NCBI RefSeq assembly: GCF_003057965.1 | Contig: NZ_CP020921.1 | Span: forward strand, 1,561,001-1,625,000 | DNA length: 64,000 nt | From: Thermodesulfobium acidiphilum | Lineage (GTDB): Bacteria; Thermodesulfobiota; Thermodesulfobiia; Thermodesulfobiales; Thermodesulfobiaceae | Direction of reading: 5' to 3' | In this document: positions 7,306 through 60,288 of the stretch, in pieces | Numbering within the stretch: position 1 is the stretch's first letter | Layout of the letters: each line of letters starts with the position of its first letter | Program-made: the position numbers and the translations under genes | The notes under the pieces: model-generated | Databases searched by the model: none | Told to the model about the DNA's origin: nothing | The model's input: only the letters and a program-made list of their open reading frames with translations

Positions 7306-9855
7306 ATGGAGTTAGATTTTTATTATGGAAAAGATAAAAAAGAAAGAGAAAGCTTTGTAATATATCACCTGCGCGACCGTCTCCTTTACGGTCGAAAGAT
7401 ATTGTTTGAGAGAACCATCTCAGGTTTCATTGACCCTCTGGAAGTAGAAAGTTATTTAAACAAACTATACAGGGAAGTATGTTCTGACATATTAAAATTC
7501 TGCATAATAGAAGCAAGGGGAGAAGGATTCCCAGAAGAAGATATATGCATAGCTGCTGTTGGTGGTTTTGGTAGATGTGAGATGGCCCCTTATTCAGATA
7601 TTGATTTAGTTTTTTTGTCCCAAAACGAAGAAGGACCTTTTTTAGATAACGTTCTAAAAAGAGGCTACAGACTTTTGTCAGATATCTTTTTTGGTATAGA
7701 TTTAGAAGTCGGCTATAGTTTTAGAACTACAGAAATAAAACACATCGACCACATTACAAGAACCAGCTTTCTAGATTCTAACATTATTTCTGGAGATAAT
7801 AACATATTTCAAGAATTCAAAAGAAATTTTTGGAATAGATTAAACTTAGCAGAATTCATATTTGTAAAGTTATCAGAAAGAGAAATAGCGTCACAAAAGT
7901 TCGGCGATAACCCTTATTTATTAAGCCCAAACTTAAAGGAATGTAGGGGTGGGCTTAGAGATTATCATACATTTAAATGGATTTTTCAGAGTAGGTATGC
8001 ACTTTCAAACTGTTCAATTGCTAAAGATGTAGAAAATACTTATATTTTGGATAAAGATGATATCAATAGGCTCGAATCGTCATATCGATTTCTTAGAAAA
8101 ATAAGAATCTTATTACATATAATGGCCAGAAAAAGACAGGATTATCTTTCAAAAAATTATCAACCAAGGTTAGCAGAATTTTTAGGTTATAAAAACTCAG
8201 TAGAATTTATGAAAGAATTAATTTATTATCTTGAAAATATCTCAGAAATATCAAGCAGAGGAATAAAAAAGATACTTCAAGAAGGTTTTCAAATTTCAAG
8301 TTGCTTCTCAATAAAAGGAAACAGTATTACTTATCAATATGACTCTCCTATTCAAATTTTTAGATTCGATTTCATAAGAGCTTTTGAATATAAATCTCTT
8401 TACGATCTGGAATTATCAGTAAATCTTGAAGAAGAATTTATCAAACAACGCAGCAAACTAAAACCCAATGATGAGACTATGAACGTATTTTTAAAAATCC
8501 TTAAAAATGGAAAAAACAAAGCTTCCATATTAAGAAATATGCAATCTTTGGGTCTGCTTGAAATACTGATACCAGAAACCAGGGGAATTTTTTATACTTT
8601 ACCCGAAGATCCCATGCACGAATTTACTATTGGAGAACACACAATGGTTATGATTGAAACTCTCGAAATGTTTGAAAGAGGCGATTTTGGACAAGAAATA
8701 GCAGAAATATTTAATTCTTTATCAAACCCACTTGTTTTATATCTTGCAGCTTTATTTCATGATATTGCAAAGTTAAAAAATTCAGAAAATCACGATATAG
8801 AAGGTGCAAAAATATTTTCTAACTGGGCAAAAAAAACTAGATTAGATCAGAATACTATAAATAACGTTAGTTTTATCATAGCAAACCATCTTCAAATGGT
8901 AAGAACTTCAAGATTAAGAGACCTTCACAGAGAAGAAACTATTGAAGAATTCGCTCAATTAGTTTCAGACACGGAAAGGTTAAAAAACTTATATCTTATT
9001 TCTTATGCAGATTTATATTCTTTGTCAAAAAAGAAACCAAGCCCGATATCAATTTATCAGCTAAACGAGCTTTTTAAAAAGAGTCAATCAAATTTACTAA
9101 GGCCTGCATCAAAAACAGACTTTAAAGACGTATTTAAAAAGAATATAAAAAAGAATCTGCCAAACAAAGATGAAATAAATCTCTATATTGACAACATGCC
9201 TGCTACTTATTTAATGAACATACCACAAGAAATTATTGCGTTTCATTTGGACCTTATTTCCAGATTAAAAAACGAAACGCCTCAAGTATATTTTGAAGAA
9301 TCAATCAACAAAGACTTTTCTAAAGTTACAATTGCTACATATGAGATTGAAGGGCTCCTGTGGAAAATAGCAGCAGTATTTTATGCTCACAATTTAGATA
9401 TCCACACCGCTGAATTATACAAGTTCTCCACAAAACCACCGGTAGTAATTAACGAAATTTGGACAACTTTCAAAAACAAACCAGTTCCTGAGTTTTTAGC
9501 GCAATCAGTACAGAAAGATTTGCGCGATACTCTTAGTTTAAAAAGAGATATATTTGAACTATTAAGACAGAAAAACAAAGATATAGAATTTCCCGTAAAG
9601 CTTTTCAACGTTAATTGTTTAAACAATATATCCCCTAAATCAACTGTCATAGAAATAATAGCTGAAGATAGACACGGACTTTTGTATAGGTTAACTCAGA
9701 CCCTATCCTCTCTTGGACTTTACATACAAACAGCAAAAATTTCCACCTGGGAAGGTAGAGCTGAGGATGCATTTTATATTACAAAGGAAAATAACTTAAA
9801 GTTAAGTGAGCAAGAATGCCAAGAATATTTGAAAAAAATAGTTTACCATATATAA
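7306..9855 (+). CDS. glnD: PII uridylyltransferase / uridylyl-removing enzyme GlnD
   Basis: This 849-residue enzyme has the GlnD domain order: nucleotidyltransferase with GGFGRCEMAPYSDID at 86-100, the GlnD/PII-UTase middle with CRGGLRDYHTFKW, an HD domain with LAALFHDIAK, and two C-terminal ACT domains (KVTIATYEIEGLLWKIAAVF and VIEIIAEDRHGLLYRLTQTL). It uridylylates PII under nitrogen limitation and removes UMP when glutamine binds the ACT domains. No glnB is in the window, though an ammonium transporter ends at the right edge. The ATG at 7306 has no ribosome site. Confidence 0.92.
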   Translation: MELDFYYGKDKKERESFVIYHLRDRLLYGRKILFERTISGFIDPLEVESYLNKLYREVCSDILKFCIIEARGEGFPEEDICIAAVGGFGRCEMAPYSDIDLVFLSQNEEGPFLDNVLKRGYRLLSDIFFGIDLEVGYSFRTTEIKHIDHITRTSFLDSNIISGDNNIFQEFKRNFWNRLNLAEFIFVKLSEREIASQKFGDNPYLLSPNLKECRGGLRDYHTFKWIFQSRYALSNCSIAKDVENTYILDKDDINRLESSYRFLRKIRILLHIMARKRQDYLSKNYQPRLAEFLGYKNSVEFMKELIYYLENISEISSRGIKKILQEGFQISSCFSIKGNSITYQYDSPIQIFRFDFIRAFEYKSLYDLELSVNLEEEFIKQRSKLKPNDETMNVFLKILKNGKNKASILRNMQSLGLLEILIPETRGIFYTLPEDPMHEFTIGEHTMVMIETLEMFERGDFGQEIAEIFNSLSNPLVLYLAALFHDIAKLKNSENHDIEGAKIFSNWAKKTRLDQNTINNVSFIIANHLQMVRTSRLRDLHREETIEEFAQLVSDTERLKNLYLISYADLYSLSKKKPSPISIYQLNELFKKSQSNLLRPASKTDFKDVFKKNIKKNLPNKDEINLYIDNMPATYLMNIPQEIIAFHLDLISRLKNETPQVYFEESINKDFSKVTIATYEIEGLLWKIAAVFYAHNLDIHTAELYKFSTKPPVVINEIWTTFKNKPVPEFLAQSVQKDLRDTLSLKRDIFELLRQKNKDIEFPVKLFNVNCLNNISPKSTVIEIIAEDRHGLLYRLTQTLSSLGLYIQTAKISTWEGRAEDAFYITKENNLKLSEQECQEYLKKIVYHI

Positions 9856-51501: not shown

Positions 51502-51635
51502 AATTACCTCCTAAAAGTTAGTCAACATCATAAGATTTTATTATAACCTAAATATATATTAACTAATCTTAATTTATAAATTAAAAAGTTATAAATAAAT
51601 TAACTAAAATTTCTGTAATCAAAAAACTTACAAAA

Positions 51636-51754
51636 GGTAATATAAAATTCCATTACAAAATACCTGGAATTACCACTACAAAATACTTTATTTTGATGAC
51701 CCCATAAATTTACTTATTCCGACTTTTTTTAGGCTTATTGATAAGTCAGAATAA
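51636..51754. promoter_or_regulatory. Repeat-rich leader of the Usp-TauE unit
   Basis: Two direct repeats TACAAAATAC (51654-51663 and 51677-51686) are 23 bp apart. Further down a 12-bp inverted repeat with one mismatch, TTATTCCGACTT (51714-51725) and AAGTCAGAATAA (51743-51754), spans a 17-base loop. They precede the first Usp gene and could be sites for the NarL-type regulator at the end of the unit or other factors. The surrounding 51502-51794 stretch has no gene. Confidence 0.45.
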
Positions 51755-51794
51755 TATCAAAGATAAAAATTATTAATGAAAGGTGGTAATTAAG

Positions 51795-52223
51795 ATGACG
51801 AAGAGCAAGAATGTTTTTGTAGTTCTTAAGGATAGAAAGCAAAATCAGACAAAACTAATCAAAGAAACAAGAGATTATGTCGCAACAAATAACGTCGAGA
51901 AGATCTATTTGTTGAAAATTATAGACAGATCTGAAGACCTTGGCGTATTTAATCCTGAAGCAGAAGAAATTATTGTCACAAGAGCTGAAAACGATATTTC
52001 AAAGTTTATAAGTGAATTAGGCAAGGTCAATTGTCAGGTAGAAGGAATCATAAAGATTGGTTCATATCAAGACAGAATTGAAGAATTGTCAAAGCAGTTT
52101 AACCCAGAAGCAATAATAGTCCAAAGCTCCAAGTTAAGCGGCATAAAGAAAATTTTCCTTGGGAACACAGCTTCGGACGTTATAAACAACGCACACTGTC
52201 CTGTAATTATTGTCGGGTCTTAG
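51795..52223 (+). CDS. Universal stress protein (UspA family)
   Basis: The 142-residue protein (from ATG 51795, MTKSKNVFVVLKDRKQNQTK) has the Usp fold and the C-terminal signature PEAIIVQSSKLSGIKKIFLG followed by NTASDVINNAHCPVIIVGS, a Gly-x2-Gly-x9-Gly(S)-like nucleotide loop. Its N-terminus departs from the usual ILVAxDGS, so ATP binding may be altered. A GTG at 51783 would add four residues but sits in the ribosome site. It opens the Usp-small protein-TauE-Usp unit. Confidence 0.75.
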   Translation: MTKSKNVFVVLKDRKQNQTKLIKETRDYVATNNVEKIYLLKIIDRSEDLGVFNPEAEEIIVTRAENDISKFISELGKVNCQVEGIIKIGSYQDRIEELSKQFNPEAIIVQSSKLSGIKKIFLGNTASDVINNAHCPVIIVGS

Positions 52224-52269
52224 CGGGTTTAAAAATAAATTTATAAATAACTTTCAAGGAGGGAGAAAA

Positions 52270-52512
52270 ATGAAGAGGGAAAATAACAAAAAGATAATAC
52301 CTCTAATGATATGGGGTAGTCTTTCACTAGGTTCTTATCTAATGATTTTCTTATTTCAAAATGAGTTGCTGTTTTATTCTACAAGGGGTGGTATATTTTC
52401 AATAGTCCCAATACTCTTTGCATTTTATTTCTCTTTTGTACATGGAGCTTTTGCAAGTTATTTATTACCGTTTATTGGCGTTGAAGCAATAATAAAGAAG
52501 GAGGCGCATTAA
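52270..52512 (+). CDS. Small membrane protein upstream of TauE
   Basis: The 80-residue protein (from ATG 52270, MKRENNKKIIPLMIWGSLSL) has two membrane spans (about 10-28 and 40-65). The start follows AAGGAGG; an in-frame start at 52210 is less likely since it would overlap the Usp stop. The gene ends one base before the TauE gene, implying a joint function, perhaps as an accessory subunit. It is not recognised. Confidence 0.65.
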   Translation: MKRENNKKIIPLMIWGSLSLGSYLMIFLFQNELLFYSTRGGIFSIVPILFAFYFSFVHGAFASYLLPFIGVEAIIKKEAH

Positions 52513-52513
52513 A

Positions 52514-53593
52514 ATGGTAGAAAATTCTATGGGAATTTTATCGAACTTTATTACTCTTGACCCAGCAAATATGCTGTTCTTGCTGTTTGTAGGTTTTGTT
52601 GGAGGACTGGTTAGCGGCTTTATAGGTTCTGGTGGTGCATTTGTTCTAACACCTGGAATGATGAGTATTGGAGTGCCAGGAACAATAGCAGTTGCAAGTA
52701 ACATGTGTCACAAGTTTCCAAAGGCAATGGTCGGAGCTTACAAGAGATGGAAGTATGGCCAGGTAGATATAAAGTTAGGGCTTATTATGGCAATATCAGC
52801 TATACTTGGAGTTCAAGTAGGCATCCAGATTCAAGAAGCAATATTAAAGACCTGGGGGAATGCAGGATCAAATCTTTACGTAAGCACCATGTTTATAATC
52901 GTTTTAACAGTGGTTGGCTCATATGTATTTAAGGATGCACTAAATATGGCAAAATCAAAGAACACAAAGGAAGAGACTACTGCCCTTGCAAAGAGGATAC
53001 AAAGCATAAATATACCACCAATGATATACTTTGATAAGATTGGGACAAAAATATCCTTCTGGGTTACCTTCCCAATAGGATTTTGTACAGGACTTCTTGC
53101 GGCCACAATAGCAGTAGGAGGCTTCATCGGAGTTCCTGGAATGATCTATATATTGGGCGTAACAAGCACTGTAGGCACAGCAACAGAATTAGTAATAGCA
53201 TTTGTGATGGGTCTTGTTGGGTCTGTAAAGTGGGCGATGAGCGGAATGATAGATATTAGATTGACTCTTATAATTCTTGCAGGATCTTTAATAGGAGTGC
53301 AAATTGGAGCTGCTGCTACTACATTTGTAAAGCCATATCTTATAAAGTTTGTAATGGGCTTCATAATGCTCTTAGTTGCTGGTTCAAGAATCCTTGCAGT
53401 TCCTCAATATCTAAATGAACTAAACATAATCCATCTTGAGAAGCAGGCCTTGAACGCATTAGATCAAACTAGTTTTATGATAATGAGTCTAACGCTTCTT
53501 GCTGGAGCAATAATAATAGTATTTAGCATGGTAAGAGGAAAAAGAGAATTCAAGAGTGCAAATGCTATTGCACAGGTTAAGGTAAATGATTAA
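52514..53593 (+). CDS. TauE/SafE family sulfite/organosulfur exporter
   Basis: The 359-residue permease has two homologous halves, each with a glycine-rich loop: GFVGGLVSGFIGSGGAFVLT and PIGFCTGLLAATIAVGGFIG. At least eight spans are visible. Members export sulfite, sulfoacetate, taurine or related anions. A soluble loop at about 145-175 precedes the second half. The link to sulfur metabolism of the organism is inferred. A two-domain Usp gene follows in 9 bp. Confidence 0.85.
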   Translation: MVENSMGILSNFITLDPANMLFLLFVGFVGGLVSGFIGSGGAFVLTPGMMSIGVPGTIAVASNMCHKFPKAMVGAYKRWKYGQVDIKLGLIMAISAILGVQVGIQIQEAILKTWGNAGSNLYVSTMFIIVLTVVGSYVFKDALNMAKSKNTKEETTALAKRIQSINIPPMIYFDKIGTKISFWVTFPIGFCTGLLAATIAVGGFIGVPGMIYILGVTSTVGTATELVIAFVMGLVGSVKWAMSGMIDIRLTLIILAGSLIGVQIGAAATTFVKPYLIKFVMGFIMLLVAGSRILAVPQYLNELNIIHLEKQALNALDQTSFMIMSLTLLAGAIIIVFSMVRGKREFKSANAIAQVKVND

Positions 53594-53602
53594 AATAAAT
53601 AC

Positions 53603-54547
53603 ATGTACAAGAAATTATTGGTTGCATATGACGGTTCATTAAGTAGCAAAAGCGCGCTGAAGGAGGCACTGGTAATAAGTGCCTCCTTTGATTCCTATAT
53701 AACGATCATAAGCGTATTTGACTTGCCCACAGAGATATTCGGCATTTCATCACTAGAATCAGAAAAAATAGAATCTGAATTATTTACAATGCTTTTAAAT
53801 GCTTTTGAACAATCAAAAGAAGTAAATAAAAAAATAAACGCCTTCTTTGCTACAATTGCTGGAGACAACGCAACTTATACAAATATTGAATCAAACGAAA
53901 AAATTCAAATACCCAAAAAGGTAAATTCACCAGATCACGCAATAATATCCTTTGCAGAGTTTCTAAAACCTGATCTAATATTAATAGGCACGAAAGGATA
54001 TAACAGAGTAATAAATGTTGGAAGCGTAACAATAGGCGTTATTAGAAATGCCCCTTGTGATGTACTAACTATAAAAAATTATAAGGAAGGAAAGTTCGAA
54101 GAAAAATATAAAAATATACTTCTTGCATTTGATGGTTCTGAAACTTCAATTAACGCACTAAAAAGAACTATTAGCATAGCAAAAAAGTTTAAATGGGATA
54201 TTACGGCAATTCACGTCTATCCTCTTCTTACAGAAATAAACCTCTTTTCAAGCGTTCACACAAAAGAAGTTTTGCTTCAAACTTCAAAACATATTCTAGA
54301 AAGAGCAAGAGAAATTGCTTACAAAGAAAATTATCCTATTTATACGCACTCGGGGGGATTTGGTGATCCTGCACAATATATTGTTAATTATGCTATAGAA
54401 GAAAATTATGATCTGGTCGTTTTAGGAACACAAAATCCAAATACCGTAAAAAAGGTTCTTATAGGTAGCATTGCATATAGAATTATTTCGGAAGCTGATT
54501 TTCCTGTATATTGTATTCCCACAAAAAGCTCAAAAAAAGTATTGTAA
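53603..54547 (+). CDS. Tandem universal stress protein
   Basis: The 314-residue protein has two Usp domains. Domain 1 (1-155) opens KKLLVAYDGSLSSKSALKEA and domain 2 (about 168-310) NILLAFDGSETSINALKRTI; both carry the adenosine-binding start and the end motifs GTKGYNRVINVGSVTIGVI and LGTQNPNTVKKVLIGSIAYR. Tandem Usps usually bind ATP. The beginning of the gene contains a strong stem-loop (53660-53688) inside codons 20-29. Confidence 0.88.
   Translation: MYKKLLVAYDGSLSSKSALKEALVISASFDSYITIISVFDLPTEIFGISSLESEKIESELFTMLLNAFEQSKEVNKKINAFFATIAGDNATYTNIESNEKIQIPKKVNSPDHAIISFAEFLKPDLILIGTKGYNRVINVGSVTIGVIRNAPCDVLTIKNYKEGKFEEKYKNILLAFDGSETSINALKRTISIAKKFKWDITAIHVYPLLTEINLFSSVHTKEVLLQTSKHILERAREIAYKENYPIYTHSGGFGDPAQYIVNYAIEENYDLVVLGTQNPNTVKKVLIGSIAYRIISEADFPVYCIPTKSSKKVL
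53660..53688 (+). terminator. Terminator-like stem-loop inside the tandem usp gene
   Basis: AAGGAGGCACT (53660-53670) pairs perfectly with AGTGCCTCCTT (53678-53688) across a 7-base loop, 11 bp with six G-C pairs. It is encoded within the codons for LKEALVISASF. The following TTGATTCC is only weakly U-rich, so it could be an attenuator or processing barrier downstream of tauE rather than a full terminator. Confidence 0.55.
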
Positions 54548-54554
54548 TTAGGTT

Positions 54555-55520
54555 ATGGACTATAGAGGTACCATAAGAGAAAAATTTTTAAGTTACAAAG
54601 ACATACTCTTTATGTTATTTTTCATAGTTTTATTGTTTATCGTTGGTGCTTTTTTTATTATTAACGTTAATTTTTTTCCTAGCCCCTCCTCAAATTTGGA
54701 TCTAACTAAAAAGTCTCTTCCTATTTATACTGAAAATGAACCAAACACAATTGGTATAGTCGTATCTTCCACATTACCAATCGAGGAAATTACCTTAATT
54801 TACAAACCCCTTATAACATATCTTTCAAAGGCAACAAATAAACATATTGTTCTTTTTACAAGAAAGACCTATTCTGAAGCGCTTGATTCTATTCTCGCAG
54901 GTGATGCACAAATTGGCATAATAGGTTCAGGTGCCTTTTATGTTGACAAAAACGAGTTAGATTTGCTCGCAGTACCCATGATAAACAATAAAACATATTA
55001 CAAATCATATGTAATAGCCCAAAAAAACAATATAAAAAATTTGTTTGACTTAAAAGGAAAAACAATTGCATTCACCGATCCACATTCCTTTGCCGGGTAT
55101 ATTGTATTAGAAAATTATCTTAAAAAAAATGGTTTAAACCTTAACTTTTTCTCAAAACATTTTTTTACTTTTAGTGTCAGCTCTTCAATTGATGCTTTAA
55201 AGGAGGGCCTGGCTGATGCGGCTACTATTGACAGCAATACATATGAACAATTAAAAGAAAAAAATCCAGAAATATCAAATACATTACATATAATATGGGA
55301 ATCTCCAATTGAGATTCCAAATCCTCCTGTAATAGTCATAAAAAATATGGATTACAGAACAAAAATTCAATTTCAAAAACTTTTTTTGGATATGGACAAC
55401 AGCATAGAGGGGAAAAAGGTTCTCAATATTTTGGGTTACGATAAGTATGTTGAAGTAAATAGTAATTTTTTTGAACCAATTTCGGAATGGCTTGGCAAAA
55501 ATAATGAAAATAAGTTTTAA
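54555..55520 (+). CDS. Membrane-anchored PhnD-like periplasmic binding protein
   Basis: The 321-residue protein has an uncleaved N-terminal membrane segment (about 18-40, ILFMLFFIVLLFIVGAFFII) and a phosphonate/phosphate-type solute-binding domain: NTIGIVVSSTLPIEEITLIY, GDAQIGIIGSGAFYV, LKGKTIAFTDPHSFAGYIVL and EGLADAATIDSNTYEQLKEK. No ABC permease or ATPase genes are near. It overlaps the kinase gene by 17 bp, so it is probably a sensor partner rather than a transport component. Confidence 0.82.
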   Translation: MDYRGTIREKFLSYKDILFMLFFIVLLFIVGAFFIINVNFFPSPSSNLDLTKKSLPIYTENEPNTIGIVVSSTLPIEEITLIYKPLITYLSKATNKHIVLFTRKTYSEALDSILAGDAQIGIIGSGAFYVDKNELDLLAVPMINNKTYYKSYVIAQKNNIKNLFDLKGKTIAFTDPHSFAGYIVLENYLKKNGLNLNFFSKHFFTFSVSSSIDALKEGLADAATIDSNTYEQLKEKNPEISNTLHIIWESPIEIPNPPVIVIKNMDYRTKIQFQKLFLDMDNSIEGKKVLNILGYDKYVEVNSNFFEPISEWLGKNNENKF

Positions 55521-56910
55521 AATTGCTATATCTGTCATTTTGCCATCTCTTATATGCACGCTCGCGCTTTTACTATTTATGAAATATACTCTAACCCAGA
55601 ATCTTCTCGAAAATTTAAATAAAAGAATGCAAACCACTTGTTCAGATATTGAATATTCAATCATAGATAGCATCGCCACAAATAATAGTATCGAAGCCAA
55701 CAGAATTCTAAAAAACATAAAGCAACAAAACAAGGAGATTGTATACATCTATATTCAGAGACCATTTGGCAGAATTCTTGCATCAACATTTGATGACGGT
55801 TTCCCAACAGAATTACTTAGTCTTAAGAATCCCAACGAAAAATTAGTAAGGATATTCAAGACTAAAGATAATACAATATACGATCTTAATTACCCGCTTT
55901 TAGGGGGCAGTTTTGGAACAATTCATATTGGATATACTCATAACTTAATAAAAGATAGAATCAACAATTTTATTCTTCAATCTCTATTGTTTAGTTTCAT
56001 AGTGATTGTCATTTCTTTAATGTTCTTTCTCTTTTTAACCCGATCAATAGTTAGAAATATAAACAAGCTAATTTATCTTACAAAAAGAGTATCAGTTGGA
56101 GATTTTGATACAAGAGTTGATATAAGATCTAAAGATGAATTAGAGCTACTTGCTAAGTCTATGAATTCTATGGCAAACGACTTGAAAATTCATAGAATTG
56201 AAAGATTAAAGATGGAAGAAAGACTTAAGAAGGAAGAAGAAGAGAAGAAAAGGAAAGAACTTTTAAGAAGGGAGATTTCCTCTTTGGAAAAAGAAAGGAA
56301 AAGGATTTCTATGGAAATACACGATGGAGTTATGCAAACTCTAGCTTCAGGACAGATTAACCTCTTTCACGTTATAAATAGCGACAAAATTCCAGAAGAT
56401 CTCAGAGATCGATTAAAAATTTCATATAACATTTTTAAGGATGCTACAAATGACCTGAGAAACCTGACAATAAATCTTAGGCCTCGTATATTAGAAGAAG
56501 TTGGTCTAAAAAGATCTATAGAAACGCTCCTTGAAAGAGCAGAACAAAGCAATAATCTTGATGTAGAATTAATTTATGATATTAGATCAAAACTCCAGGA
56601 TTACGTTGAATTGTCTTTGTTCAGGATAATCCAGGAAGCCATAAATAACGTAATAAAACACGCTAACGCTAGCTTCATAAGCGTCATTGTTAAAGAAAAT
56701 AATGATAGAATAGAATTAACAATAGAAGATAATGGTTCAGGATTCGAAATCAATTACGAAGACAAAAAATATACCAACAGTTTTGGTATTATAGATATGA
56801 AAGAAAGGGCAGAAAGCCTTGGGGGAACATTAAACATAGAAAAAAAGGAAGAAGGTGGCACAAAAATTTATGCAAGCATCCCATTCAAAAAAGAAGATTT
56901 TAATAGTTGA
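55504..56910 (+). CDS. NarX/LiaS-type sensor histidine kinase
   Basis: The 468-residue kinase (ATG 55504) has membrane segments at about 5-25 and 155-185 flanking a 130-residue extracytoplasmic domain, a HAMP domain (SVGDFDTRVDIRSKDELELL), a basic coiled coil, HisKA_3 with the phospho-His in MEIHDGVMQTLASGQ and a HATPase domain (IEDNGSGFEINYED, SFGIIDMKERAESLGGTL). An in-frame start eleven codons earlier lies further inside the preceding gene. It overlaps the PhnD-like gene and the regulator gene. Confidence 0.92.
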   Translation: MKISFKIAISVILPSLICTLALLLFMKYTLTQNLLENLNKRMQTTCSDIEYSIIDSIATNNSIEANRILKNIKQQNKEIVYIYIQRPFGRILASTFDDGFPTELLSLKNPNEKLVRIFKTKDNTIYDLNYPLLGGSFGTIHIGYTHNLIKDRINNFILQSLLFSFIVIVISLMFFLFLTRSIVRNINKLIYLTKRVSVGDFDTRVDIRSKDELELLAKSMNSMANDLKIHRIERLKMEERLKKEEEEKKRKELLRREISSLEKERKRISMEIHDGVMQTLASGQINLFHVINSDKIPEDLRDRLKISYNIFKDATNDLRNLTINLRPRILEEVGLKRSIETLLERAEQSNNLDVELIYDIRSKLQDYVELSLFRIIQEAINNVIKHANASFISVIVKENNDRIELTIEDNGSGFEINYEDKKYTNSFGIIDMKERAESLGGTLNIEKKEEGGTKIYASIPFKKEDFNS

Positions 56911-57565
56911 CGATCATGCACTCTTAAGAGAGGGTTTGAAATTTTTGATAAGCCAATCCAAAGAAGATTTTGAAGTTATAGGCGAAACCCCCAGTGCAGT
57001 TGAAACCTTGAAATTAGTAAAAAGGTTAAGACCAGATATCGTAATATTAGATTTGTCTTTATCTGATGGAAGTGGACTTGATATAATCGAACCAATTAAG
57101 AAAATTTCTCAAAGCACTAAAATTCTTGTTCTAAGCATGTATCAGGATGAGTCTGTGATAGTCCAGGCCTTAAAGGAGGGGGCTTCAGGTTTTATCCCAA
57201 AAAGCGAGGTATCGGAAGAGTGTATTCAGGCATTAAAAATTATTTCAAATAGCGATGATCTCTACGTACCCGCTTCATATTCCAGAGTAGTGTTGAAAGG
57301 ACTCCTCTCAGATGACGGCTCTAAAACTCTTAGTTCAAGAGAAGATCAGGTACTAAGGCTATTAGCGCTAGGGTATAGTGCCAAAGAAATAGCACAAACG
57401 CTTCAAATTAGTCCCAAAACAGTTCAGACCTATAGACAAAGAATAACTACCAAGCTTGATTTGAGAAGAAGATCAGATATTGTAAGATATGCTATTTCAA
57501 AGGGACTTCTAAAAGAGGAAGAAATAAAAGGAATAGTTTTACCAAAAGATGATGAACTAATCTAA
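56870..57565 (+). CDS. NarL/LuxR-type response regulator
   Basis: The receiver starts KKKILIVDDHALLREGLKFL, with the phospho-Asp in DIVILDLSLSDGSG and Lys in GFIPKSEV; the GerE helix-turn-helix reads SSREDQVLRLLALGYSAKEI and LDLRRRSDIVRYA. I start at ATG 56870, but the GTG at 56855 is possible; both lie inside the kinase gene (overlap of about 40 bp). It probably controls the Usp-TauE unit or respiration genes. It converges on the PAS sensor gene with a 4-bp overlap. Confidence 0.93.
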   Translation: MQASHSKKKILIVDDHALLREGLKFLISQSKEDFEVIGETPSAVETLKLVKRLRPDIVILDLSLSDGSGLDIIEPIKKISQSTKILVLSMYQDESVIVQALKEGASGFIPKSEVSEECIQALKIISNSDDLYVPASYSRVVLKGLLSDDGSKTLSSREDQVLRLLALGYSAKEIAQTLQISPKTVQTYRQRITTKLDLRRRSDIVRYAISKGLLKEEEIKGIVLPKDDELI

Positions 57566-60231
57566 ATTTTTCTCAGACTTCCCAGAGCACCTTTAAAAAC
57601 CTTACCTTCATATTTTGCGAATATTTTCATTTCGAATTTTATGTATTCATCTTTATCATTTCTGATATCAATCTCAAAAACAGCACTTTTTTTATCTCCT
57701 TTTAACATCGACATAAAAAAAAGAGTAAGCTTTTCTTTCTCGGCAGGGGATGAGAAGTCAACAAAAAATTTATTAAGAAAATCTTTTGGGTAAAGGTTAG
57801 TATAATTATATATTCTGTCACTTATAAAACTAAATCTCCCAGAATAGTCAAGTTCAAATATTACTTCATCTATTAGACTAATTATTTCAAAGTATTTTTC
57901 TTCAATATTCTTTACCAGGTTATAAGCACTCTTTAGCTCGGTAATGTCGTAGCTTAAGCTTATTAGCCCTTGAAGGTTTCTATTCTCATCAAAAATTGGT
58001 ACCTTTTGAGTAAGAACGCTTATAGATTCGCCATTGGGTTTTCTAAGCACCTCCTCCTGAAAATGAACCATACCAAGTCTTACAGTCATTCTGTCTAATT
58101 CAAGATTCTTCTCTGCCTGTTCTTTACCAAATATTTCATAATCAGTGTGACCAATAATCTCTTTTCTATCCTTCCCCAACATTTTAGAAAAATTATTGTT
58201 TACAAAAACATATATGCCTTCCTTATTTTTGTAATAAATATAACCCGGCAAACTATCAAGAAGGATGTTTAGCTCTCTTTGTTTTTGAATAAAAGCTTCT
58301 TCCGAACGTTTCTTTTCTGTTATATCTCTACAAACAACAAAAATCAATTTCTTAGAATTTTTGTATATAGTATTGGTCTTAATATCAAGGATTTTAATAT
58401 GGTTTTTTGCATCAACTGCTTTGATTTCAAAGGATAGACTTGTTATATTTTCTTTCTGAATTCTTTCAATTAGAGACTTTACATATCCTTTGTCTTCAGG
58501 ATGTACAAAGTTTATTATTTCTTTATTAATTACATCTTCAGGTTTATACCCAAAAGTTCTGTAAAGCTCATTATTTGACTTTATAATCCTATAATCCGAA
58601 TCAACCACTAATACAATGTCATTTATATTGTTAAACAATATATCATAGTCCTCTTCTCTTTCTCTAAGAGAGTTGTGAATTCTCTCCTTTTCTGTAACCT
58701 CAGAGATCGTTAGCAATATAAAATCTTCTTCTTTAATAGAAACCTTCTTTGCTTTCCCTTCAAATACAATTTTTGCTCCACTTTTTGTACTAATATAAAA
58801 TTTAAAGGGAAATATAGAATCTTTTTCGGTAACTACAATTTTTTCAAACAATAATTTAAACCTTTCTCTCTCACCATTTTCTAAAAAGTTCAAGAAATTT
58901 TTGGCCTCAATGTCATTAATATCAGAAAATAGCATTGCAATAGAATCGTTTTCAAAAAGTATTTCTCCGTCAGCATCTACAACCAGTATAATATCGCTTG
59001 AGTTTTCAAGAAGAAGTCTAAAATATTTCTCACTCTCAGAAAGCTTCCTGAATTCGCGCCTTTTTTGAATCAAAACAACCACAAGCAAGACGATGATTAA
59101 TAGCAGCAAGAAAGCCACTACAGAAAAGTAAAGGATAGCCTTTGAATACCTTTCAAAAAGAGTTTCGTGATGATTTATTATCTTGCTATTGAGAGGTAAC
59201 TGGCTTCTTTTTATATTAAATTTTTTTAAGAAATTTTCGTCAAAGGCATAGTAGTTTGACTCAGAGCTATCCACAATTTTAGAATTCTCCCATCCTGTGC
59301 CATTATTAAAAAGATATTGGTAAACTAATTTTCCTACAATTTTGCCCTGATCAAACCCGCTGGTAATCATCCCACCCACTATTCCATTACCCAATTGATA
59401 ATCAAACATCCCAAAAATTGGTATGTTTACACGCTTAGAAAGCTCTATTGTAGGAGTAGATCCGATTAAGTCGCTGCCGTATTTATCTATACTGTGAGTT
59501 ATCAAATCTAGCACAAGGGTACCACTGGGCTCTGAATTAATTTTATTTATTATCCTTTCCAAATTATTTGAAACAAAATATTCGTTTAGTATGTCCTTGT
59601 GAGATACAAAAAAGTTATCAAATTGTTTTTTAAAATATGCTGCATCATTTGCATCAGCAATACCTAAAATCTTTTTTGTATTCGGAAAAAGCTTTAACAT
59701 TAGGGAAAGAGTAGATTCTAAGTCTTCTTCTTCTTTTACGCCGTAAATTCTATCAGGAACAAATCCTTTTATATCATCACTATAAGTATTTACCCCACAG
59801 AAAAATATTGGAGGATTACCAAACTGTCCCCTCTCCTGAAGTGCAAAAATAAAAGCAGGGTCATCTGTAGCAATTATTGCATCAAACTTAAATCCTCTGT
59901 ATTTCTTTATGAAGAGGTTAGAAAAATCTTCAAAATAGTTCTTTGTGTTAAATCTTTTAACGTCCATGTTTTCAATAAATATTTGAGGGGATGGAGATTT
60001 ATCGCTTAATTCTTGTAAAATTCCCTTTTGTTCTTCCACAGCCCAAATATAATCAGGACTATAAGAGTTCAATATTAAAACCTTCTTAGATGATAAACCC
60101 TGAGAGTAAGCACGAAAATTAGACAAAACCATAAGAATAAACAAAAGTAGTAAAAACCATTTAAATATTTCTAGGCAGTGGATTGCCTTTTTACAAAACA
60201 AAATCTCACGAATAAGGCGCAAGAACATCAT
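57562..60231 (-). CDS. Membrane sensor: ABC-type binding domain plus four PAS domains, no output
   Basis: From ATG 60231 the product is about 889 residues: an N-terminal membrane segment, a periplasmic ABC_sub_bind-like domain (KVLILNSYSPDYIWAVEEQK, then ATDDPAFIFALQERGQFGNP), a second membrane helix (AILYFSVVAFLLLLIIVLLV near residue 380) and four PAS domains (starting near ENSSDIILVVDADGEILFEN, NNINDIVLVVDSDYRIIKSN, DSLPGYIYYKNKEGIYVFVN and LIDEVIFELDYSGRFSFISD). It stops after the fourth PAS with no histidine kinase, GGDEF, EAL or chemoreceptor domain. It must act through a partner, possibly the convergent NarX/NarL pair. The frame remains open to 60285 but a ribosome site (GGAG) supports 60231. 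Confidence 0.85.
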   Translation of the reverse strand: MMFLRLIREILFCKKAIHCLEIFKWFLLLLFILMVLSNFRAYSQGLSSKKVLILNSYSPDYIWAVEEQKGILQELSDKSPSPQIFIENMDVKRFNTKNYFEDFSNLFIKKYRGFKFDAIIATDDPAFIFALQERGQFGNPPIFFCGVNTYSDDIKGFVPDRIYGVKEEEDLESTLSLMLKLFPNTKKILGIADANDAAYFKKQFDNFFVSHKDILNEYFVSNNLERIINKINSEPSGTLVLDLITHSIDKYGSDLIGSTPTIELSKRVNIPIFGMFDYQLGNGIVGGMITSGFDQGKIVGKLVYQYLFNNGTGWENSKIVDSSESNYYAFDENFLKKFNIKRSQLPLNSKIINHHETLFERYSKAILYFSVVAFLLLLIIVLLVVVLIQKRREFRKLSESEKYFRLLLENSSDIILVVDADGEILFENDSIAMLFSDINDIEAKNFLNFLENGERERFKLLFEKIVVTEKDSIFPFKFYISTKSGAKIVFEGKAKKVSIKEEDFILLTISEVTEKERIHNSLREREEDYDILFNNINDIVLVVDSDYRIIKSNNELYRTFGYKPEDVINKEIINFVHPEDKGYVKSLIERIQKENITSLSFEIKAVDAKNHIKILDIKTNTIYKNSKKLIFVVCRDITEKKRSEEAFIQKQRELNILLDSLPGYIYYKNKEGIYVFVNNNFSKMLGKDRKEIIGHTDYEIFGKEQAEKNLELDRMTVRLGMVHFQEEVLRKPNGESISVLTQKVPIFDENRNLQGLISLSYDITELKSAYNLVKNIEEKYFEIISLIDEVIFELDYSGRFSFISDRIYNYTNLYPKDFLNKFFVDFSSPAEKEKLTLFFMSMLKGDKKSAVFEIDIRNDKDEYIKFEMKIFAKYEGKVFKGALGSLRKI

Positions 60232-60288
60232 ATCCACCGCTCCATTTCCTTTAGGATAAATAAACATATCATTACATAAACGCACTAT

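Follow-up and report, generated by a model that had tools for sequence, protein, structure and literature searches.

The seven-gene operon described here lies at positions 51,795–57,565 of a 64,000-nucleotide stretch of Thermodesulfobium acidiphilum DNA (the window, positions 1,561,001–1,625,000 of the single 1,774,794-base contig, which bears dsrA), and appears to join two modules. The first contains a universal stress protein (Usp1), a small membrane protein with two transmembrane (TM) segments, a TauE/SafE permease of the TSUP family and a second universal stress protein (Usp2); the second is an XSR-type three-component relay consisting of a membrane-anchored PhnD-like binding protein, a histidine kinase and a response regulator. 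The explanation we favour, with moderate confidence, is that this is a sensing relay that adjusts a TSUP permease operon. The observations behind it are the anatomy of the operon, its duplication in the same genome, the pairing of PhnD-like proteins with receptors across bacteria, an altered binding pocket, a promoter site shared by the two copies, and the independent spread of the first module together with dsrA and kinase genes.

Organization of the operon

All seven genes are intact and transcribed rightwards, and the last three overlap, as the original prediction had described from gene order; the start that it gave, position 51,636, falls in the promoter region, and the first gene begins at 51,795 (gene calls and Pfam). 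Usp1 (51,795–52,223) is a single-domain protein (PF00582, 52 bits, 1.3e-13) with an ATG start and GGTGG upstream. It is followed by an 80-residue protein, here called the TauE partner (52,270–52,512), which has an AAGGAGG Shine-Dalgarno sequence, two hydrophobic segments, and no match in Pfam or NCBIfam. The TauE/SafE transporter (52,514–53,593) matches PF01925 with 124.8 bits (cut-off 32.6; 5.7e-36), and Usp2 (53,603–54,547) is a tandem-domain protein that matches PF00582 over two stretches (144 bits, 5.5e-42). The proposed sensor, the PhnD-like protein (54,555–55,520; PF12974, 169 bits, 1.4e-49), has one N-terminal TM segment, the only strong hydrophobic segment in the protein (residues ∼17–35), and since the copy in the window contains no cysteine it has no lipobox. 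The kinase (55,504–56,910) is composed, from its Pfam matches, of a TM segment, a Cache-like periplasmic part of ∼130 residues, a second TM segment, and HAMP, HisKA_3 and HATPase_c domains, and the NarL/LuxR-type regulator (56,870–57,565, with an alternative GTG start at 56,855) combines PF00072 (Response_reg) with PF00196 (GerE). The kinase had been called NarX-type, which holds only in that it is a HisKA_3 kinase; a true NarXL system was considered and rejected, with scores of 133 bits against a cut-off of 578 for NarX and 125 against 250 for NarL.

The first five genes are separated, in order, by 46, 1, 9 and 7 bp, the PhnD-like and kinase genes overlap by 17 bp, and the kinase and regulator genes by ∼41 bp; no terminator-like sites were found between the genes of the operon. 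As predicted, there are no PhnC- or PhnE-type transporter genes in the operon or adjoining it. The four genomes of the genus Thermodesulfobium share this gene order, and their TauE, PhnD-like and kinase proteins are 78–96% identical.

A paralogous locus in the same genome

The same genome contains a paralogous copy of this operon (locus A), which we refer to as locus B (fetched stretch L044, 6355–13,258). Its genes encode, in order, TauE, a 264-residue membrane protein, Usp, a PhnD-like protein, a HisKA_3 kinase, a NarL-type regulator and a CitMHS permease, with a third TauE-Usp pair divergent from it (L044 4135–5536, minus strand). The PhnD-like proteins of the two loci are 37–39% identical and the kinases 36–38%, aligned over their length, and each of the four genomes in the genus carries both loci. 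The genome encodes no full PhnD-like proteins or HisKA_3 kinases other than the two pairs of loci A and B. The conserved order in four genomes, together with a paralogous trio behind another TauE and Usp, places the arrangement of locus A beyond chance. We propose that the locus B relay works like that of locus A, although its pocket and its TauE differ and a CitMHS-family permease is added.

The reading frame of the TM anchor of the locus B PhnD-like protein stays open upstream of the first ATG, GTG or TTG (L044 ∼9000–9100, L048 ∼7550–7650, L050 ∼7980–8070), and a conserved AGTGGGGGTATT directly precedes this frame, a possible non-standard start codon.

PhnD-like proteins are paired with receptors

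A search with a single PhnD-like sequence over genome contigs returned one locus only, from the same genus, and relatives were sought with a profile of the eight proteins of the genus against 386 genomes of many families, with their neighbourhoods fetched. Among relatives from outside the genus, the 26 top scorers (at least 108 bits) include 25 with a histidine kinase or Cache-HAMP receptor gene on the same strand within 2.6 kb, mostly within 60 bp, and none with an ABC (ATP-binding cassette) ATPase gene beside it, the neighbourhood of the 26th stopping at a contig edge; ABC ATPases turn up only beside lower-scoring relatives. The partners vary, and include a HisKA_3 kinase with a NarL-type regulator (L139), a HisKA kinase with a sigma-54 regulator, and an HD-GYP protein, and some of these receptors bear an sCache_3_2 domain. 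Among PDB entries, two signalling proteins, ArrX with 173 bits and AioX with 123, are closest in sequence, ahead of Escherichia coli PhnD (93 bits) and PtxB (64 bits).

The claim that the PhnD-like protein detects ligand for the kinase thus survived the search for ABC genes beside its relatives elsewhere, and its role as the kinase's sensing partner, as opposed to an orphan transport protein, is well supported by these gene neighbourhoods. The second copy in the genome, the presence of both copies in all four genomes, and the sole pairing of PhnD-like proteins with HisKA_3 kinases there argue for the same role. We suggest that PhnD-like proteins paired with Cache-HAMP receptors form a broad class of sensors, of which the arsenic sensors represent only one pocket type.

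The TauE module in other genomes

Orthologues of TauE with 56–66% identity are present in many genomes of two other phyla, where matches at E ≤ 1e-60, some weaker relatives included, were found in 79 of 296 and 43 of 297 genomes. Among 40 loci fetched from these phyla, a homologue of the two-TM partner lies directly upstream of TauE in 39 and a Usp gene downstream in 30; a PhnD gene is present in none. The Usp proteins had been taken for response modules of the sensor, a view that this distribution speaks against: Usp genes stay with TauE and its partner in two phyla where PhnD is absent, and so belong with these two. We read them best as regulatory parts that would sense nucleotide or energy state and act on the permease via the small partner, and Usp proteins may more generally serve TSUP permeases as regulatory components.

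In eight loci of one phylum (L249, L250, L252, L254, L255, L257, L262 and L265) a single open frame ∼1 kb upstream of TauE encodes both a Usp-like domain, weak against Pfam, and the partner. A conserved in-frame Shine-Dalgarno sequence, AAAGGAG in most, lies ∼8 nt before the internal ATG that opens the partner, and the gene possibly gives two products, one fused and one short. Among distant TauE relatives (L134–L138) the preceding gene encodes a Cytidylate_kin2-type protein of ∼515 residues whose C-terminal two-TM part is partner-like. The occurrence of Usp and partner in one frame, and of a partner-like end on a cytidylate-kinase-like protein, makes a physical link between Usp, partner and TauE likely.

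Among genomes from outside the genus, five of the eight with this TauE clade contain dsrA, compared with 23 of the 374 others (Fisher p ∼7e-5; the genomes are not fully independent). The surroundings of the TauE core in the two phyla are rich in kinase genes, at 0.075 per kb compared to 0.015 in random stretches (5-fold, and 3.9-fold over random stretches within the same ten genomes), and sigma-54 activators occur at 5.8 times the density of random stretches. The module thus tends to sit among two-component genes elsewhere, and here the PhnD-like/HisKA_3/NarL relay takes that place. At one locus (L131 10,159–12,195) there is a receiver-domain Lon-type protease (PF00072, AAA and Lon_C), and receiver proteins of similar size are divergent from the TauE module in ∼19 of the 40 loci of the two phyla. 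At another (L132 13,034–19,513), behind a first cluster of TauE, histidine kinase and NtrC genes, TauE occurs in a second cluster together with an Alph_Pro_TM protein (PF09608), two Usp proteins and MshEN/DUF202 proteins.

Promoter elements and flanking genes

Three related elements lie upstream of Usp1. The candidate operator CTTACAAAAGGTAAT (51,627–51,641, plus strand) is a 15-base site common to the promoters of loci A and B, and downstream of it a repeat search identifies a pair of direct repeats (51,645–51,686, plus strand) that end in TACAAAATAC and are 23 bp apart. The locus B site reads CTTACAAAATGTAAT, and CCTACATGATGTAGT in two species, such that bases change between species with the dyad symmetry kept. 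Exact matches to the pattern CTTACAAAANGTAAT in the 1.77 Mb genome are confined to the two operon promoters; there are four one-mismatch matches, all elsewhere, and a reversed control pattern gives two at the same tolerance. The tandem repeat arrangement occurs once in the genome (control, none), and the operator and repeats are conserved in the four genomes. A looser operator pattern was not specific, and a scan with a promoter consensus performed at chance level (27 compared with 27.6).

The operon is flanked upstream by a divergent gene for an S55-peptidase protein and downstream by a gene for a large membrane protein with several PAS domains (57,562–60,285, minus strand) that is convergent with the regulator gene. 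The latter protein has no kinase, GGDEF or other output domain, and an open frame of similar length occupies the same place in all four genomes.

Transport direction, ligand and alternative explanations

TauE had been proposed as the exporter matching the sensor, and this part of the original prediction is weakened: TauE is a Pfam name only. Thermodesulfobium narugense is reported to lack the sulfate transporters SulP, DASS and CysP, its only candidates being of the TSUP family, one clade of which is conserved across sulfate reducers (PMC5840216), and Desulfovibrio contains TSUP operons under sigma-54 control whose substrates are unknown (PMC4641369). The word exporter is thus no evidence of direction, and import by TauE would be at least as likely as export. 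A sequence comparison of TauE with solved structures gave no match. An alternative that we consider rather unlikely is that this is a stress or energy-state operon, in which the relay senses another anion or an organic acid, or redox or envelope stress through the Cache domain of the kinase, and TauE exports sulfite or sulfonate in detoxification. The family is indeed named after sulfite export, Usp genes are present, the kinase has an extracellular domain of its own, and some relatives of the PhnD-receptor pair drive HD-GYP proteins; however, TSUP proteins are the sole reported candidates for sulfate transport in T. narugense, none of our results favours export over import, and both PhnD-like genes stay with their kinases in all four genomes.

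The ligand is addressed most directly by the binding pocket. In AioX this is formed by Tyr88, Cys106, Tyr131, Ser161, Ser163, His192 and Asp210 (PMC5908839), and these positions were mapped onto loci A and B by alignment. The locus A pocket contains Tyr106, Gly124, Tyr149, Ser178, Ala180, Val208 (Ile in two genomes) and Asp226, and that of locus B has, in the same order, Asn, Thr, Phe, Ser, Ser, Ser and Asn. In place of the arsenite-bonding Cys106, locus A has Gly and locus B has Thr, and His192 is replaced by Val or Ile and by Ser, respectively. Of the ten further receptor-paired relatives that were aligned, seven keep both Cys and His, so that their loss is specific to these loci. The pockets of A and B differ at six of the seven positions, and a different ligand is expected for each of the two proteins. 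Oxyanion pockets that contain an acidic residue usually prefer an anion in its protonated form, and the Asp of locus A may fit hydrogen sulfite, phosphite or a similar anion somewhat better than sulfate. Of the original proposal of sulfite or phosphite, the oxyanion type remains plausible from the relatives, but the arsenic pocket is broken and no computation names the ligand. Given its kinship with sensors of arsenic oxyanions and its different pocket, the PhnD-like protein probably recognizes some other small anion, possibly a sulfur compound.

An arsenic- or phosphate-type sensor similar to AioXSR or ArrXSR, with arsenite, arsenate or phosphate as ligand and its place behind TauE incidental, appears improbable. 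It would account for ArrX and AioX being the closest solved relatives, for the retention of Tyr88, Tyr131 and Asp210 in locus A and of Ser161 in both loci, and for the ArsB/CitMHS-type permease that closes locus B. Against it are the replacement of Cys106 and His192 in both loci, the dissimilarity of the two pockets, and the lack of a molybdoenzyme among the large open reading frames examined in the window, with the caveat that pocket residues by themselves do not set selectivity (PMC5908839). Alternatively, the PhnD-like protein could serve an ABC importer encoded elsewhere as its binding subunit and be in the operon by accident. Its Pfam and TIGRFAM names, which are those of transport proteins, suggest this, but the idea is largely refuted, and very improbable, given 111 bits against a cut-off of 261 for TIGR03431, the membrane anchor, the overlap with the kinase gene, the lack of ABC ATPases beside the 26 nearest relatives, and two copies each with a kinase beside it.

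Proposed mechanism

Under the explanation that we favour, the first module would be a transport unit that is common in sulfate-reducing lineages. The PhnD-like protein, tethered in the inner membrane by its N-terminal helix, would close on a small periplasmic anion and dock on the Cache-like domain of the kinase, which would in turn phosphorylate the NarL-type regulator. The regulator may then bind the repeats upstream of Usp1 and change transcription of its own operon, and through this autoregulation the supply of permease would follow the external anion. We infer that the ligand is an anion, most likely a sulfur oxyanion, and that TauE transports the same or a related anion, in either direction. 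As a more specific and only tentative possibility, the operon may belong to a non-arsenic branch of the XSR systems in which the tethered PhnD-like protein monitors the external supply of a sulfur oxyanion and adjusts expression of a TSUP permease importing the respiratory substrate of a sulfate reducer that lacks the usual sulfate transporters, the two relays of each genome being tuned to different anions.

Several points weigh against this explanation. First, it is from spacing alone that the seven genes suggest one transcript. Secondly, PhnD was found beside this TauE clade in one genus only, and the joining of the modules is thus a single lineage's arrangement. Thirdly, kinase density around TauE is flat with distance within ±7 kb (0.084 and 0.078 per kb), which gives no support to a direct action of those kinases on TauE, and our claim is kept to enrichment over random stretches. 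In addition, CTTACAAAANGTAAT was read from the two promoter sites and is present there by construction, such that the case for a candidate operator is that the pattern has no exact match elsewhere and is conserved in four genomes. Finally, the AlphaFold models built from two-sequence alignments, for the PhnD-like protein and for the kinase, were of insufficient quality (pLDDT, the model confidence score, 41 and 55); between its TM helices the kinase model has, at low confidence, a helix-helix-five-strand pattern that would fit a Cache domain.

By what route many sulfate reducers import their principal electron acceptor is not settled, and for some of them, T. narugense included, the TauE family is reported to supply the only candidates. 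Here a permease of this family is linked to a ligand-binding sensor, and knowing what the sensor binds would be a direct lead to the substrate of the permease.

Comparison with known systems

The TtrS/TtrR and ThsS/ThsR systems (PMC5408782) share with this operon a PhnD-like ligand detector of a two-component system, theirs for a sulfur oxyanion, although in TtrS and ThsS the PhnD-like domain is fused N-terminally to the kinase and here it is a separate gene. A fused sensor of the TtrS type was rejected accordingly, the TtrS model NF040750 scoring 18.1 bits against 750 and TtrR 45 against 290. The TSUP 'clade B' putative sulfate transporters, e.g. DVU2958 (PMC5840216), are likewise of the TauE family and highly conserved across sulfate-reducer phyla. 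The sigma-54-regulated TSUP operons of Desulfovibrio vulgaris (PMC4641369) also place a TSUP protein under dedicated enhancer-binding regulators, some of them two-component, whereas the operon here has a NarL-type regulator and a binding-protein sensor.

The greatest similarity is to the AioXSR, ArxXSR and ArrXSR systems, in which a stand-alone gene for a PhnD-like protein lies beside those for a membrane histidine kinase and a response regulator, and ArrX and AioX are closer to the PhnD-like protein than are the transport proteins PhnD and PtxB. Regulators of the AioR class are sigma-54 regulators, whereas the Thermodesulfobium relays have a HisKA_3 kinase with a NarL-type regulator and a membrane tether. 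Neither the operon nor locus B has arsenic molybdoenzyme genes, and none is among the large open reading frames examined in the window; a canonical arsenic sensor was rejected, the PhnD-like proteins lacking the pocket Cys106 and His192 and there being no adjacent arsenic molybdoenzyme. In place of the arsenic oxidase or reductase genes that neighbour the known systems there is a TSUP permease with Usp proteins, and we would class the operon, from its gene content, as a variant of the binding protein-kinase-regulator (XSR) kind.

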